From IMG/VR virus record IMGVR_UViG_3300031699_000005, positions 1-41,746 of that record: DNA of 41,746 bases. One strand, written 5' to 3'. Origin of the DNA: a virus. The notes below the pieces were generated by a model that saw only the letters and a program-made list of their open reading frames with translations, did no database searches and was not told the DNA's origin. Every line of letters begins with the position of its first letter. Position 1 is the stretch's first letter. This document shows positions 9,414 through 30,967 of this stretch, one piece after another. Both the position numbers and the translations under genes were made by a program.

Positions 9414-10213
9414 TAAACGCTCACACCCCCGGGGGAGACCGCTCCATAGTTCTCCCGTCGCGTCCCATCATGCGCCCTGGGCACCCTGTCGGGATGCACG
9501 GCAGGATGAGGCTGACTCTGGTGCAGACTCTCCGCGCCATGGGCCTTATCGACGCCACGTGCGTCCTGGCGACGGACCCGCTCGACACCATCGCCGCCGG
9601 GACGCTCACCCCGTCCGTCGGTCCGGCGATGACCGTGACGGGATCGATGCCCGTCGTCGCGTCGGCGATCCCTGGAGTGCCGGCGTGGTCGATGGACGGG
9701 TTTTCGTGCGCAATCCAGACAACAGGGACCACGGATCTCGCGGACACAGATGATGGGGTGCTCCTAGCGCTGGTGTATCCATATGCTGCACCGTGGACCG
9801 GATCAGGAGCGTATTTCCTGGCATCCAAGGGCGCCAGCGTTGGAATAGGACTCCTTGAGAGGTGGGACGCAGGCGTCCCGGCGTATGGTGTCGCCCAGGA
9901 TTCGTTGGGAGCCACCTATTCTACGTCCGGGTTGGCGATGTCGAGGATACCCCTATTGATGTCAGCTCGTGTTTGCCGCACCACGGGTAAGATCCAGACA
10001 CAGTGTAACACCACTGCTGGAACCGCTGCGGCGCTACCGGCCGGGACCTTGGACGGAAACCAACCCCTCGCGATAGGATCACTGGGTACAGGGAGCACGA
10101 GAGCAAAGGCAGGAACCCAGATCCTCGGAGCGGCCGTATTCTTCGGAGCGGGGATCTGCGACACGGTGTGGTCCACGACTCTTCTGAGCCAGATCTACGC
10201 GAGGGTAGTCTGA
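9410..10213 (+). CDS. Tail-associated protein, possible lectin-like fold
   Basis: This 267-residue protein starts at an ATG behind GGAGGT (9401-9406), overlapping the fibre stop. The sequence is Gly/Ala/Thr-rich and beta-prone. The last segment (LGAAVFFGAGICDTVWSTTL) resembles the end of concanavalin-like/LamG phage domains that close with a Trp-containing helix, but this is weak. It follows the fibre and so probably belongs to the tail tip or host-recognition module. Function unknown. Confidence 0.6.
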   Translation: MINAHTPGGDRSIVLPSRPIMRPGHPVGMHGRMRLTLVQTLRAMGLIDATCVLATDPLDTIAAGTLTPSVGPAMTVTGSMPVVASAIPGVPAWSMDGFSCAIQTTGTTDLADTDDGVLLALVYPYAAPWTGSGAYFLASKGASVGIGLLERWDAGVPAYGVAQDSLGATYSTSGLAMSRIPLLMSARVCRTTGKIQTQCNTTAGTAAALPAGTLDGNQPLAIGSLGTGSTRAKAGTQILGAAVFFGAGICDTVWSTTLLSQIYARVV

Positions 10214-19152: not shown

Positions 19153-19568
19153 CGCTTCGCCTCGTTGCCGATTACGCCGCGTTCGCGAGCCTTCTCTAGT
19201 CTCTCCTCGGCGTTGTCGAGACGCCGAGCTAACGAGCTAAGCCGGAGTGTGTGAGACCGAACTCCGAGCTTTAGTTCTTCGAGCTCGTCCCGAGCGGCGT
19301 CTCGCTCGGCGATGATTTTGGCCACGTGCCTGCTCTCGTGGACGCAGGGCGCCTCGTCCCCTCCACCATCGCCGAGCCCCTTGGCGCGCCACAGCGCCCG
19401 CTGGGCCCAGGCCTTTGCCTGCTCCATGGCGAAGGCAGGGCTCTCCCTGTCCTGCACGTCGTCCGGCGTCGTGTGGTGCTTTAGCAGGCTGTCCAGGTTG
19501 CGCTGGATGACCGTGATCATCCCGCCGAAGATTATCAGATCGGCTGTCTTCTTTTCGTCGTCGATCAT
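19149..19568 (-). CDS. Coiled-coil hypothetical protein next to helicase
   Basis: 139 residues, starting with an ATGA overlap after the helicase gene. The N-terminal half has TADLIIFGGMITVIQRNLDS and FAMEQAKAWAQRALWRAKGL. The C-terminal half is a long charged helix with heptads (AERDAARDELEELKLGV, RLDNAEERLEKARERG). No family recognised. Its position between helicase and resolvase suggests a replication-linked role, which is only contextual. Confidence 0.58.
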   Translation of the reverse strand: MIDDEKKTADLIIFGGMITVIQRNLDSLLKHHTTPDDVQDRESPAFAMEQAKAWAQRALWRAKGLGDGGGDEAPCVHESRHVAKIIAERDAARDELEELKLGVRSHTLRLSSLARRLDNAEERLEKARERGVIGNEAKR

Positions 19569-20902
19569 GGCTCTCCCCTATCAGAAAGGTTATCGAATCG
19601 TGTATACTCCGCCGTCCAGCGGAGCTCGATCGTCCCGCACGGACCGTTGCGGTTCTTCGCGATGTGGACCTCTGCGACGCCCGGGTTGTCCGAGTTGGAA
19701 TGGTAAAAGTCGTCGCGATAAAGAAACGCGACCACGTCCGCGTCCTGTTCGATTGACCCGCTGTCTCTCAGGTCCCGGATGATGGGTCGCTTGTTCTGTC
19801 TGCTCTCGACCTCGCGATTGAGCTGACTCAGCACAAGGACTGGGACGTCGAGCTCCCTAGCCAGCCCCTTGATTCCGGCCGAGATGTTGGCGATCTCGCG
19901 CTCTCGTGAGGCGTCGCGCTTCGCCGTGATCAGCTGCAGGTAGTCGATGACCACCAGGCCGAGCCCCTTGCGCGCGGCGTGCACTCGACACCAGCCAGCG
20001 ATCCGATCGATCGAGAGCTGCTCCTCGCAGAAGCTCAGCGACGATTCGGAGATGCAGGAGAGCGCCTCGATGGCCCGGGGCCACTCATCCGCCTCGAGGT
20101 CTCCCGTCATCATCGACTTCGTGTTGATGCGCGCCTTCGCAGCGACCATCCCGCGCAGGATGTCGTCGCGCTTCACCTCGAGGGTGAAGAAGATCGTCTC
20201 GTGGTGGTTCTTGCCGGCCCACCAGGCGCACGCCTTCGCCAACGCGGTTTTGCCCATCGATGGCCGAGCCGCGAGGACGATGACCTTTCCCTTTTGCCAG
20301 CCTCCCGTGATTCGGTCGAGATCGTAGAAAGGCGTCGGGACCCCGTTGACCCCGCCGAGCTGCGACGCCGACTCGAGGGCGACGAAGGTTTCGTGGCACT
20401 GGTCCTTTGCGCTGACGATGCTCGCCTTGCCCCTGTCGGTGTCCCGGAGCGCGGCGAAGAGCTCCGTCTCCGCCCAGCCCACGAACTCGTCGCCGTCCTT
20501 GCCTCTGGCGACGCTCTCGAGATCGACCCTGCGAGCTGCCGTGATGACGGCGCGCACCCTCCGGTACCCCTGGAGCCGCTCCGAGTGCATTTCGGCGGCG
20601 GCCTCGCCCGACGCGTGGTCGATCAACTCGGCGATGTACGCGACCCCGCCGGCGGCATCGAGCTTCCCGGCTGCCTCGAGCTCCTCCGTCAGCGACGGGA
20701 TCGAGAACGTCCCGGCCTGGAGCGCCAGGAGCGCCGTGAAGATCGCCTGGTGGCGGAGGTCCCAGAAGTCTTCGACCGTGTGGTGGACCGCCATGTACGG
20801 TATCCAGTCGGGGCACAGCATCGCCCACGCGAGGACCTCCTGCTCCGACCCAGTGGAGTGAGGGAGCGCCCGCTCGGGCCGCGGAGAGGCGATCGCCTTC
20901 AT
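19565..20902 (-). CDS. dnaB: Replicative DNA helicase (DnaB-like)
   Basis: The 445-residue protein matches DnaB: an N-terminal helical domain (GSEQEVLAWAMLCPDWIPY, FWDLRHQAIFTALLAL), linker, and RecA-like motor domain with Walker A ARPSMGKT (212-219), Walker B VVIDYLQL (317-324), SQLNREVESR (359-368) and RDLRDSGSIEQDADVV (376-391). It unwinds DNA at phage replication forks. It lies next to a probable initiator/loader gene (20899). No primase or polymerase is present, so it likely works with host enzymes. Confidence 0.93.
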   Translation of the reverse strand: MKAIASPRPERALPHSTGSEQEVLAWAMLCPDWIPYMAVHHTVEDFWDLRHQAIFTALLALQAGTFSIPSLTEELEAAGKLDAAGGVAYIAELIDHASGEAAAEMHSERLQGYRRVRAVITAARRVDLESVARGKDGDEFVGWAETELFAALRDTDRGKASIVSAKDQCHETFVALESASQLGGVNGVPTPFYDLDRITGGWQKGKVIVLAARPSMGKTALAKACAWWAGKNHHETIFFTLEVKRDDILRGMVAAKARINTKSMMTGDLEADEWPRAIEALSCISESSLSFCEEQLSIDRIAGWCRVHAARKGLGLVVIDYLQLITAKRDASREREIANISAGIKGLARELDVPVLVLSQLNREVESRQNKRPIIRDLRDSGSIEQDADVVAFLYRDDFYHSNSDNPGVAEVHIAKNRNGPCGTIELRWTAEYTRFDNLSDRGEP

Positions 20903-21414
20903 GGTGCGTCCAACTCCATGCTGTCCTCCAGCATCGCCTTGAACCTCGCGCGCTCCTCAGCCGTCTTCGTCAGATCTGCCTTGCGCTTCGCCCTGGCTCG
21001 CTCCTCCGCCGCCCGCTCCTCGGGGGACAGGGTGAGCGACTGCCGGGCATTCGGTGCCTTCTTGTGGCCCGTGGGGGCCTTGCGGCTGGTCGAGGAACTC
21101 CCGCGCTGCTGCTGCTCCTTGGGGCGCTCCTCGACCAGCCTCACGATCAGACCTCCCTTTCCTAGTCTTGCTCGGTGGACAGCGACGACGCCGATCTGCT
21201 CCAGCTCCAGGAGCGCGGCGCGGAGTTGCTTCCCGGACACGTGTTTTTCGGAGACTCGAGCGTAGGCCTCGCCGAGCTGGCGGAGGCTGCCCCTCCACCC
21301 GACCGAGACGAAGTCGAGCGTCCTGATGACGTGGTCCAGGCGCATCGCTGTCGTGCTCACCCGAGCGAGGAGCACGGCCGACGCGGACGTCGTCGCTGTC
21401 CAGTCAGATGCCAT
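20899..21414 (-). CDS. Probable replication initiation or helicase-loading protein with winged-helix N-terminus
   Basis: 171 residues, start ATG 21414, overlapping the helicase start by ATGA. Residues 20-95 look like a winged helix (DHVIRTLDFVSVGWRGSLRQ, LGEAYARVSEKHVSGKQLR, ALLELEQIGVVAVHR). The rest is a long, charged, low-complexity tail (PEERAAEERARAKRKADLTK). A winged-helix protein directly before dnaB is a common arrangement for phage replication proteins of the lambda O type. Function is inferred from context. Confidence 0.62.
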   Translation of the reverse strand: MASDWTATTSASAVLLARVSTTAMRLDHVIRTLDFVSVGWRGSLRQLGEAYARVSEKHVSGKQLRAALLELEQIGVVAVHRARLGKGGLIVRLVEERPKEQQQRGSSSTSRKAPTGHKKAPNARQSLTLSPEERAAEERARAKRKADLTKTAEERARFKAMLEDSMELDAP

Positions 21415-25079: not shown

Positions 25080-25271
25080 CTATCGGAGCCGAGCGGCGTG
25101 AATCACGTCGCCGGCGAACACGTAGTCAACGCTCGCATCGACGAACGAGATGACGTCCGAGCGGGACCAGCCGAGCTCGTCTGCGAGCGCCTGTGGCGTA
25201 GGTCGTGCGACACAGGATCCGAAGGCGTCTCCGAACTCGGCCCGGGCCTCCGCGTACTCCTCGTCCGTCAT
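25080..25271 (-). CDS. Small hypothetical protein with HTH-like C-terminus
   Basis: The start was set at ATG 25271 because GGAGGAG lies directly upstream. In-frame ATG 25295 and GTG 25337 are alternatives, the last overlapping the stop of the tiny frame above. The 63-residue product has MTDEEYAEARAEFGDAFG and then TPQALADELGWSRSDVISFV, which reads like a small helix-turn-helix. A DNA-binding role is possible but not established. Confidence 0.55.
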   Translation of the reverse strand: MTDEEYAEARAEFGDAFGSCVARPTPQALADELGWSRSDVISFVDASVDYVFAGDVIHAARLR

Positions 25272-25333
25272 CGTCTCCTCCGTGCTGCTGTTCATGCCTC
25301 GAGTACGATGCGCGTCCCGTGCCAGGTGTCGCG

Positions 25334-25417
25334 TCACGCCCTGGCGGGACCGGCGCCGTTGGCGTCTCCGGAGGAGTCCGAATCCGCCACCCTGGCTGGG
25401 CGCGATGCGCCCCTCAC
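25334..25417 (-). CDS. Possible tiny ORF of 27 codons (GTG start)
   Basis: The stop of the SMC-like gene is overlapped by a GTG (GTGA at 25417-25414) that follows the strong site AAGGAGGTG. The frame runs 27 residues, Arg/Ala/Asp/Ser-rich with no recognisable fold, and stops in a further GTGA overlap at 25334-25337. It also contains the hairpin-bearing repeat described below, so the conservation could belong to the DNA or RNA element rather than to a protein. Confidence 0.3.
   Translation of the reverse strand: MRGASRPARVADSDSSGDANGAGPARA
25378..25413. repeat. Repeat element, copy A, with hairpin
   Basis: CCGAATCCGCCACCCTG (25378-25394) is followed by a perfect stem-loop, GGGCGC-GAT-GCGCCC (25398-25412). 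The same 17 bases and a similar hairpin recur at 28662-28695. On the leftward-transcribed strand the hairpin comes first. Copy A lies just after the SMC-like gene and copy B upstream of the HNH gene. See copy B. Confidence 0.6.
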
Positions 25418-28232: not shown

Positions 28233-28589
28233 CTACCTGGGGAGCTTTCTCCTGGTGGCGTTGCGGATGTCCCGGGCGACCGTCGTCGTGTCGATCCCTT
28301 TGTCCTGGAGCACCATCAGAAACGCCCTCAGGGGCAGGGCGCGCTTGCTCGAGTTGCAGCTCAGGCAGGCCGTCACGAGGTTCGTGTGGGCGTTCGTCCC
28401 GCCGAACTCGCAGGCCGTCACGTGATCGAGGGTGAGCACCGTCCCGGCGTCCTCGGCGATTGAGGCGCCGCAGTAAAGGCAGCGGTGGCCGTCCCTGGCG
28501 TAGATCCTCGCCCGCTTTTCGGGCCTGATCCACTTCGAGCCCTGCCCCGCCTTGCGTCCCGCTCGCGCTGTTTTCGCCGTGTTGCTCAT
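28233..28589 (-). CDS. HNH endonuclease
   Basis: The 118-residue protein has the small HNH pattern: CLYC (37-40), LTLDHVTACEFGGTNAHTN with Asp-His at 55-56 and Asn 70, and CLSCN (75-79) completing the zinc knuckle, after a basic N-terminus (KAGQGSKWIRPEKRARIYAR). It is encoded first in the leftward block, facing the terminase genes across the intergenic region, whereas HNH nucleases of packaging are usually next to terminase. There is no clear Shine-Dalgarno before ATG 28589. It may nick DNA for packaging or cut invading DNA. Confidence 0.85.
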   Translation of the reverse strand: MSNTAKTARAGRKAGQGSKWIRPEKRARIYARDGHRCLYCGASIAEDAGTVLTLDHVTACEFGGTNAHTNLVTACLSCNSSKRALPLRAFLMVLQDKGIDTTTVARDIRNATRRKLPR

Positions 28590-28661
28590 GCCAGAGGGTA
28601 TTGCGGGCTTCGTGCCAGCACATAAGTGCGCGAAAAGACTGCGAGAGGCGAGAACCGCCGG

Positions 28662-28695
28662 CCGAATCCGCCACCCTGCCGGGCGAGAGGCGCCC
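28662..28695. repeat. Repeat element, copy B, with hairpin
   Basis: CCGAATCCGCCACCCTG (28662-28678) is identical to copy A at 25378-25394. It is followed by GGGCG-agagg-CGCCC (28681-28695), a similar but not identical stem-loop. The copy lies about 70-105 bases upstream of the HNH start, in the divergent region. A match of 17 bases plus matching hairpin architecture is more than expected by chance in 42 kb. Confidence 0.6.
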
Positions 28696-28720
28696 CAGGG
28701 CTTACCTACACCTCCCTACT

Positions 28721-28832
28721 CCGGGTGCTCTGAGCACCCGCTAGGTGTGAGTTTTTTGCCACAGTGAGTGCTCTGGACACCCGCTACCGGGTGCTCTCAG
28801 CACCCGCTACCGGGTGCTCTCAGCACCCCCTC
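28721..28832. repeat. Palindromic operator-like repeats (three units plus a degenerate one)
   Basis: Unit 1 at 28721-28743 contains GGGTGCTC-T-GAGCACCC, a perfect 8-base inverted repeat around one base. Units 2 (28787-28809) and 3 (28810-28832) are direct tandem copies of about 23 bp with GGGTGCT-CTC-AGCACCC. A partial copy lies at 28766-28786 (gagtgctctggacacccgct). The units carry GTGCT/AGCAC half sites. The 23-bp spacing is about two helical turns, as in multi-operator or iteron arrays. Confidence 0.8.
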
Positions 28833-28857
28833 TGTACCTCATGTACCTATATGTACA
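28833..28857. repeat. Three TGTAC boxes, including an inverted repeat
   Basis: TGTAC occurs at 28833-28837, 28842-28846 and 28852-28856, at 9- and 10-base steps. The last two form the inverted repeat TGTAC-CTATAT-GTACA (28842-28857). The stretch is much more AT-rich than its surroundings and directly follows the palindromic repeats. It may be a second protein-binding site or a DNA-unwinding zone. Confidence 0.5.
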
Positions 28858-28999
28858 AAAATACCGGGCTATACGCGAGATACGAGCTTTTCGGGCCCGT
28901 CGATCAACGATCAACGTTGGTGCGAGTCGATCAGGCCGTCAAAGCTGGGCTGGGGAGGGGGGAGGACGGATCGGGCCCAGGACGGGCCCAGGATGGCTC

Positions 29000-29092
29000 T
29001 CAGTCGCCGAAGTCGATTGGGTGGCCAGTGAGGTGCGCCGCGAGCTGCTCGGCCCTCTCGACGGCTCCTCGCGCCAGGGAGGCCACCTCCAT
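29000..29092 (-). other. Possible small ORF or gene remnant, 30 codons
   Basis: On the minus strand the frame ending at 29000-29002 reads protein-like: MEVASLARGAVERAEQLAAH and then LTGHPIDFGD. The frame stays open upstream to about 29146 with plausible residues, but has no ATG, GTG or ribosome binding site there. It may be the 3' end of a gene that lost its start, or a weakly translated peptide. Confidence 0.25.
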
Positions 29093-29174
29093 CCAGGAGC
29101 GGGAGCGCCACGTCCACTCTGAGTCCTCGTCGGCCAGGTGGCGCTCCGATCCGGGGCCGTGCTACGATAGGTGA

Positions 29175-29717
29175 ATGGCGGTAAAAAAAAGGTCACCACA
29201 GCCCAACCTCTGGGACAGGCAAGAGGGAGAAGGCGCGAGACCATACGACTATTTCATGACCTATCGGGACATGGGACTGCAGCGACGCCTCGAAAGAGTG
29301 GTCGAGATGACGGGTCGGCGCCTCGGCTACCTGCGGAAGCTCAGTCATGAGTGGCGCTGGGTCGAGCGCTGCGCGAGCTGGGACGCGACGGTGCTGCTCG
29401 CCCGCGACGAGGTCGTGCTCACGGAGACCGAAAAGCTCGCCCGAGAGCACATGAAGGCTTTGGGGATCGCGCGGGCCCTTGGCACTCTGTCCCTGGCGAA
29501 GGACCTCAGGACGGCGCGCGAGAGCAATGCCAAGGGCTCCACCGTCGCGACCCGGGACGCCCTCGCGCTCCTCAAGGAGGCCGTGACCCTCGAGCGTTTG
29601 GTCATCGGCGAGGCGACGTCGAGGGAGGTGGGGCGCGTCGAGCTCAATCTGGACGGGATGGCTCCGGAGCGCGCCGAGCTGCTCCTGGATCTCCTTTCCG
29701 AGGCGGGGGTCGACTGA
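29175..29717 (+). CDS. Terminase small subunit-like protein
   Basis: 180 residues, starting at ATG 29175 with a weak TAGGTGA site. The N-terminus is basic (MAVKKRSPQPNLW), followed by YDYFMTYRDMGLQRRLERVV and a helical region with TETEKLAREHMKALGIARAL and ATRDALALLKEAVTLERLVI. The C-terminus has GMAPERAELLLDLLSEAG. It is the first gene of the packaging block, two genes before the large subunit, so a small terminase (DNA-recognition) role is likely. Sequence support alone is modest. Confidence 0.65.
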   Translation: MAVKKRSPQPNLWDRQEGEGARPYDYFMTYRDMGLQRRLERVVEMTGRRLGYLRKLSHEWRWVERCASWDATVLLARDEVVLTETEKLAREHMKALGIARALGTLSLAKDLRTARESNAKGSTVATRDALALLKEAVTLERLVIGEATSREVGRVELNLDGMAPERAELLLDLLSEAGVD

Positions 29718-30967
29718 TGGCACGCAAGGCTCCGGCTCCGAAGCCTCGTACTTCCGCGTTCGTCCCGCCCGGGCTCGAGCCCATCCTGGCCCCCATCGGG
29801 TCGATCCACGAGGCCCCGGACAATCCACGGTCGGGACACTTCGTCGACGGCATCGCCCGGTCTCTTCGCGACCTCGGCTGGCACGCCCCGATCGTGGCTC
29901 GCGAGAACGGAGAGGTCATCGTCGGACACGGACGCCTGTACGCCGCGAGGTCCCTGGGCCTCGAGGAGGTACCCGTCCTCGTGCTCGGCGACGACAAGGC
30001 GACCGCGGTAGAGCGCATGGTCGCCGACAACAGGCTCAACGAGCTCTCGACGTGGGACGTCCCGCAACTCGACGAGCTGCTCGCCGAGTACGAAGGCCTC
30101 GAGGACTGGAAGGACGACCTCGACATCGACGCGATCCTCGCCGAGGCCGACAAGGCGGCGGCAAAAAGGCACACCGATCCCGACGACGTGCCGGATGAGC
30201 AGGCCGTCGTTGTCTCTCGGCCTGGCGACATCTGGTCCCTCGGGGGCCACCGACTGTTGTGCGGGGACTCCACGAAGGCGGAGGACGTCGCCAGCGTGCT
30301 CGACGGGGCGAAGCCAAACCTGATGGTCACCGACCCGCCGTACGGCGTCGAGTACGACGCGTCGTGGAGGGAGAAAGTACTCGGCGGCAAGCGGGCCACG
30401 GGGGCCGTGGAGAACGATGACCGGGCGGACTGGTCCAAGGCGTGGGCCCTCTTTGAGGGCGCCGTCGCCTATGTGTGGCATGGTCCTAAGCAGGCGCCAG
30501 TAGTGGGAGGCAGCCTAGAGCGTGCGGGCCTCCTACTGAGGACACAAATTATATGGGCCAAATCCCAACTAGTCATCTCCAGAGGGCACTACCACGGTCA
30601 GCACGAGCCTTGCTGGTACGCAGTGCGGAAGGGCTCGACTGCTGCGTGGTGTGGTGACCGAAAGCAATCGACGCTTTGGGAGATCGACCACCGTCGCTCC
30701 GAGACCGGGCACTCGACCCAGAAACCCGTTGAGGCGATGCGGCGCCCGATCGCCAACCACGAGGGCGACGTGTACGAGCCTTTCAGCGGGTCCGGCACGA
30801 CCATCATCGCCGCGGAGATGGAGGGCCGCCGCTGCTTCGCCATCGAGGTCAACCCAGCCTACGTCGACATGGCTGTTCGTCGCTGGCAAGAGTTCACCGG
30901 CCTCGAGGCGACCGATGCTGACGGGGCGTCGTTCGCCTCCCGCGAGCGATGCGCCCCCGCACCATAG
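29717..30967 (+). CDS. ParB-like domain fused to DNA methyltransferase
   Basis: The start ATG 29717 shares a base with the previous TGA. The 416-residue protein has an N-terminal ParB-like nuclease domain (about 22-150: PIGSIHEAPDNPRSG, GEVIVGHGRLYAARSLG with GHGR at 70-73, VADNRLNELSTWD). It is followed by a beta-class methyltransferase: DPPYG (206-210), CWYAVRKGSTAAW, and EPFSGSGTT (354-362) for AdoMet. Such fusions modify adenine or N4-cytosine in phage DNA and are often next to terminase. It overlaps the large terminase start by 19 bases. Confidence 0.85.
   Translation: MARKAPAPKPRTSAFVPPGLEPILAPIGSIHEAPDNPRSGHFVDGIARSLRDLGWHAPIVARENGEVIVGHGRLYAARSLGLEEVPVLVLGDDKATAVERMVADNRLNELSTWDVPQLDELLAEYEGLEDWKDDLDIDAILAEADKAAAKRHTDPDDVPDEQAVVVSRPGDIWSLGGHRLLCGDSTKAEDVASVLDGAKPNLMVTDPPYGVEYDASWREKVLGGKRATGAVENDDRADWSKAWALFEGAVAYVWHGPKQAPVVGGSLERAGLLLRTQIIWAKSQLVISRGHYHGQHEPCWYAVRKGSTAAWCGDRKQSTLWEIDHRRSETGHSTQKPVEAMRRPIANHEGDVYEPFSGSGTTIIAAEMEGRRCFAIEVNPAYVDMAVRRWQEFTGLEATDADGASFASRERCAPAP

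Follow-up and report, generated by a model that had tools for sequence, protein, structure and literature searches.

In phage lambda, four inverted-repeat iterons are bound by the O protein and an AT-rich tract lies adjacent to them (PMC7466680). In phage SPP1, repeats and an AT-rich DNA unwinding element (DUE) are bound by gp38, the helicase gp40 is of the DnaB type, and the origin oriR is intergenic (PMC6316719). In c2-type lactococcal phages, the origin occupies a non-coding stretch that separates the divergent early and late gene blocks (PMC7150918). Here we describe a locus with features of these systems in IMG/VR virus record IMGVR_UViG_3300031699_000005, the whole of which was analysed (41,746 bp; hereafter the window). 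An open reading frame continues across the joined ends (the 41746/1 junction), and the window was therefore treated as complete, a genome of 41,746 bp that is either circular or circularly permuted. Between its leftward and rightward gene blocks, an array of palindromes adjoins a zone of unstable DNA, and we consider it highly probable that this element (28723–28864) is a phage theta replication origin of the O type (lambda/SPP1-like), most likely bound by the protein encoded at 20899–21414 (hereafter the 20899 protein).

The array consists of four copies of a 17-bp palindrome (GGGTGCTCTSAGCACCC; Table 1), with start-to-start distances of 43, 23 and 23 bp. An earlier note on this DNA had described three units, two of them in 23-bp tandem; the place and the 23-bp spacing held, but the units number four, a degenerate copy at 28766 having been overlooked, and three of them stand in tandem with the remaining one, iteron 1, 43 bp upstream. 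Across the window the palindrome is matched seven times at up to three mismatches against 0.54 expected, a count reached in 0/100 dinucleotide shuffles, and the tandem-triple-palindrome statistic of the array was equalled in 0/300 shuffles. These shuffle statistics rule out that the array arose by chance. When a 17-bp weight matrix built from other arrays was applied to the window, high scores were confined to the three intact copies; the next site, at 9756, is at chance level and scores like the degenerate iteron 2.

The weakest 30-mer of the whole 41.7-kb genome, as judged by nearest-neighbour energies, spans 28835–28864 and begins 6 bp beyond the last palindrome. Three TGTAC direct repeats start at 28833, 28842 and 28852 (9–10 bp spacing), so that the TGTAC boxes previously placed in an AT-richer zone are located and the zone itself proves to be the least stable of the genome. 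TGTAC is over-represented throughout the window (1–41746; 41 occurrences against 17.7 expected), and therefore only the cluster is informative. The detrended AT-skew minimum of the window falls at 28854, in agreement with an origin at this position.

The iteron recurs at initiator genes elsewhere. A two-copy pattern (GGTGCTN3AGCACC-N6-10-GGTGCTN3AGCACC) searched in public collections matched nine loci, five on viral and four on bacterial contigs (Pelotomaculum, Desulfallas, Peptococcaceae and Kitasatospora), against 0 matches for a control palindrome of equal composition in the same search. A profile derived from other O-like initiators detected a winged-helix initiator gene at all nine; it overlaps the array at seven of them, at the remaining two the distances are 36 and 204 bp, and at the Kitasatospora locus it precedes a DnaB gene. 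In L095 and L098 the array is intergenic, has 23-bp spacing and neighbours the initiator gene, and perfect DnaA boxes lie close to it. A looser pattern matched 36 viral loci, giving 40 with the four genome loci; a winged-helix initiator is present in 22, and of the other 18, nine are collagen-like repeats (GPTG count of at least 9) and the remainder coding repeats of other kinds or coincidental matches. At 22 other array loci the least stable 30-mer was located within 600 bp, and at 17 of them it sits 0–19 bp from the array, although array loci are often mutually related and the 17 are therefore not independent events.

Searches for close relatives of the phage by small terminase, large terminase and exact motif returned none, or unrelated coding palindromes only; the TerL alignment gave remote phages only, at no more than 37%, and a 40-nt array query against a phage collection produced only a weak partial match in a hypothetical gene of a Gordonia phage. 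Conservation of unit number and spacing was thus visible only at a distance, where array loci usually have 2–5 copies at ~21–24 bp or multiples of this. A literature search for six written forms of the motif retrieved no replication paper, a result that speaks only for those printed forms.

The layout is found with other letters as well. Tandem repeats at 20–24 bp, mostly near-palindromic 17-mers (0/200 shuffles each), occur in the O-like initiator genes of SfV, Pavtok, AsXd-1, Vibrio D96a, Pae U7, Parlo and DC1, several of which also carry short AT-rich direct repeats at ~12–13 bp spacing. The GGTGCTN3AGCACC motif is absent from all seven genes. They share the anatomy but have other repeat sequences, which makes the arrangement a general one with variable letters. 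Separately, 17-bp palindrome arrays at 21–24 bp, each with its own letters, were seen upstream of DnaB-like genes in L192 (9091–9200), L214 (5811–5875) and L195 (9184–9250).

The closest relative found, a 29.9-kb contig (L156) from a DnaB-alignment scan, has SbcC-like, RecE, RecT, initiator and DnaB genes in common with the window. Its initiator is 43% identical to the 20899 protein over 75 residues (E = 6e-11), and the two DnaB proteins match at 46%. Within the L156 initiator gene stand the repeats GGACGCTCAGGACGTCC, GGACGCTCCTGACGACC and the perfect palindrome GGACGTCTGAGACGTCC, spaced by 23 and 20 bp (0/300 shuffles), with a poorer additional copy 23 bp upstream; the array is adjoined by three 9-bp TCTGGA repeats (TCTGGATAC/TCTGGATCC/TCTGGAGAG). 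An iteron array was also sought inside the window initiator gene (20899–21414) and none was detected (165/300 shuffles equalled its repeat statistic), and the linker of the window initiator is ~57 alignment columns shorter exactly at the position of the L156 array. The simplest reading of these sequences is that the origin unit would lie within the initiator gene in L156, and that the window phage would have it in the divergent control region; more broadly, it is best read as a unit that most relatives appear to keep in the initiator gene and that the window phage would keep 7.3 kb away, in its early/late control region. The suggestion of the earlier note that the region holds a replication origin is therefore well supported, by the recurrence of the iteron at winged-helix initiator genes, by the adjoining weakest duplex and by the in-gene layout of L156.

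According to the proposed mechanism, a winged-helix initiator encoded by the phage (most likely the 20899 protein) would bind the four 17-bp iterons as dimers, the resulting nucleoprotein complex would melt the adjoining AT-rich repeat zone (28835–28864), and the phage DnaB helicase (19565–20902) would be loaded at the melted zone. We infer iteron binding by the 20899 protein, melting, helicase loading and origin activity from the features described above. That the 20899 protein binds the array is plausible, and the origin is better supported than this assignment because homology is weak, confidence in the structural model is modest and its matches to other structures are weak. Several points weigh against the reading as a whole, in addition to the relatedness of the array loci. 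The 20899 protein matches phrog_270 ('replication initiation protein') only marginally (E = 0.002); its AlphaFold model, a winged helix with a long C-terminal helix, has a mean predicted local distance difference test score (pLDDT) of 71, and Foldseek returned only weak winged-helix matches. Comparison with the HTH_36 initiators to which this iteron belongs was not significant by hhalign, HMMER or purpose-built profiles, and the protein gave no Pfam hit to HTH_36 (PF13730). The iteron letters of L156, GGACGTC-N3-GACGTCC, are unlike those of the window. The AT-skew minimum follows the direction of the genes as well, the GC-skew minimum of the window lies at 25.5 kb, away from the array, and the window has no DnaA boxes near the array and no more of them than expected by chance.

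Set against the described systems, the window resembles the lambda origin in its four inverted-repeat iterons of 17–19 bp, its probable AT-rich unwinding tract and a presumed phage initiator that would recruit the helicase (PMC7466680), and it resembles SPP1 oriL/oriR in combining repeats with an AT-rich DUE, a presumed phage initiator, a helicase of the DnaB family encoded by the phage and, as in oriR, an intergenic position (PMC6316719). Palindromic iterons in tandem, about two helical turns apart, and an AT-rich element directly beside the array are thus both present. The lambda-type location is not: the iterons of lambda, which differ in sequence, lie within the O gene, whereas those of the window are intergenic and distant from the presumed initiator gene, and the window phage, in contrast to lambda, encodes its own DnaB. 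Likewise, one SPP1 origin also lies inside gene 38, whereas the window initiator gene is without a detected array. With the c2-type lactococcal phages (Ceduovirus) the window would share the origin position between divergent early and late blocks (PMC7150918), but no evidence was seen of iterons in common. The HTH_36/phrog_270 initiator arrays (L095–L103, L130, L131) have the same iteron letters, spacings of 21–24 bp or multiples, and unstable DNA adjacent, but there the array lies in or within ~200 bp of the initiator gene. The window therefore has at least two tandem copies at the spacing of the GGTGCTN3AGCACC class, and no HTH_36 (PF13730) initiator of its own was found.

If this reading is correct, tandem GGTGCTN3AGCACC or similar 17-bp palindromes at 21–24 bp beside the weakest duplex would provide a sequence rule for origins in uncultured phages, and the window would exemplify an origin apparently outside the initiator gene in a phage whose relative has it inside. 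It also raises the question of how one iteron came to be common to initiators in Firmicutes, Actinobacteria and viral contigs.

Other explanations of the array were considered. The element could have a dual role, as origin and as autoregulatory operator through which the initiator also represses an overlapping early promoter. The array does lie in a divergent gap, its AT-rich zone could hold promoters, and a gap of this kind houses both the origin and early promoters of lactococcal c2 phages (PMC7150918), but a sigma-70-like promoter scan of the divergent gap found no site; we regard this as a tentative option, and the transcription switch that had been suggested for the region is possible but unsupported. 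An unlikely variant is that the phage acquired a foreign origin that may also be fired by the initiator of another element (a mobile or parasitic origin), a reading based on iteron letters that match HTH_36-type initiators, an own initiator that is not detectably HTH_36, and the differing letters of L156.

We judge it rather improbable that the array is purely an operator, at which a dimeric phage repressor on the four palindromes would control divergent early and late promoters in the manner of lambda OR/OL. The lambda operators are 17 bp long with a similar spacing, so that 17-bp palindromes at 23-bp spacing between divergent blocks are compatible with this arrangement, and a small protein with a helix-turn-helix (HTH)-like stretch is encoded at 25080–25337. 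However, neither a repressor nor an integrase was identified among the scanned proteins (some small open reading frames fell outside the scan), the promoter scan described above was negative, and elsewhere arrays of the same motif lie in or beside initiator genes, mostly within coding sequence. A pac/cos packaging signal to which the small terminase would bind is very unlikely: the gene for that protein starts (29175) 350 bp downstream of the array, but in the inspected loci the same array is found in or beside initiator genes and not terminase genes, and the adjoining weakest duplex is not predicted by such a signal. That the array is a functionless chance or coding-derived repeat, a reading prompted by the looser-pattern matches in collagen-like or other coding repeats, can be practically dismissed, as the array is non-coding and the shuffle statistics exclude chance.

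Table 1. Features of the putative origin and of the genes associated with it or bordering the gap (window coordinates).
Feature	Coordinates	Strand	Remarks
Iteron 1	28723..28739	.	GGGTGCTCTGAGCACCC, 17-bp palindrome; 43 bp upstream of the tandem trio
Iteron 2	28766..28782	.	Degenerate copy GAGTGCTCTGGACACCC, 3 mismatches; keeps the 23-bp register of iterons 3 and 4
Iteron 3	28789..28805	.	GGGTGCTCTCAGCACCC
Iteron 4	28812..28828	.	GGGTGCTCTCAGCACCC
Probable DNA unwinding element	28833..28864	+	Three TGTAC repeats and the genome's least stable 30-mer
Presumed origin-binding initiator	20899..21414	-	Predicted winged helix and long C-terminal helix; marginal phrog_270 match; no in-gene iterons
DnaB-like replicative helicase	19565..20902	-	Start overlaps end of initiator gene
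HNH endonuclease	28233..28589	-	First gene of leftward early block; left border of gap
Small terminase subunit	29175..29717	+	First gene of rightward late block; right border of gap

The gap between the two blocks (28590–29174; 585 bp) is the largest non-coding region seen, as the earlier note had it, although its description as the only large one is weakened on the right, where a minus-strand open frame at 29000–29150 has coding-like composition (GPGSERHLADEDSEWTWRSRSWMEVASLARGAVERAEQLAAHLTGHPIDFGD) but lacks a standard start in its first 22 residues; judging by its sequence, this is possibly a short or decayed gene within the intergenic region. The palindromes were also considered as terminators and rejected, the U-tract geometry not fitting and the sole call, at 28734–28748, being weak. 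Scans of the window gave no Rfam match and zero tRNAs. The leftward block encodes an SbcC-like ATPase, RecE, RecT, the 20899–21414 protein and the DnaB-like helicase, and the rightward block terminase, a ParB/methyltransferase fusion, portal, head and tail genes. The HTH-like stretch at 25080–25337 (minus strand) belongs to an 85-aa protein (TPQALADELGWSRSDVISFVDA), an alternative candidate DNA-binding regulator. In L156, a series of 60-nt and 24-nt repeats at 1055–2095 is apparently coding and unrelated to the origin. Between the terminase subunit genes of the window, at 29351–30967 (plus strand), a ParB-like domain is fused to an N6/N4 DNA methyltransferase.
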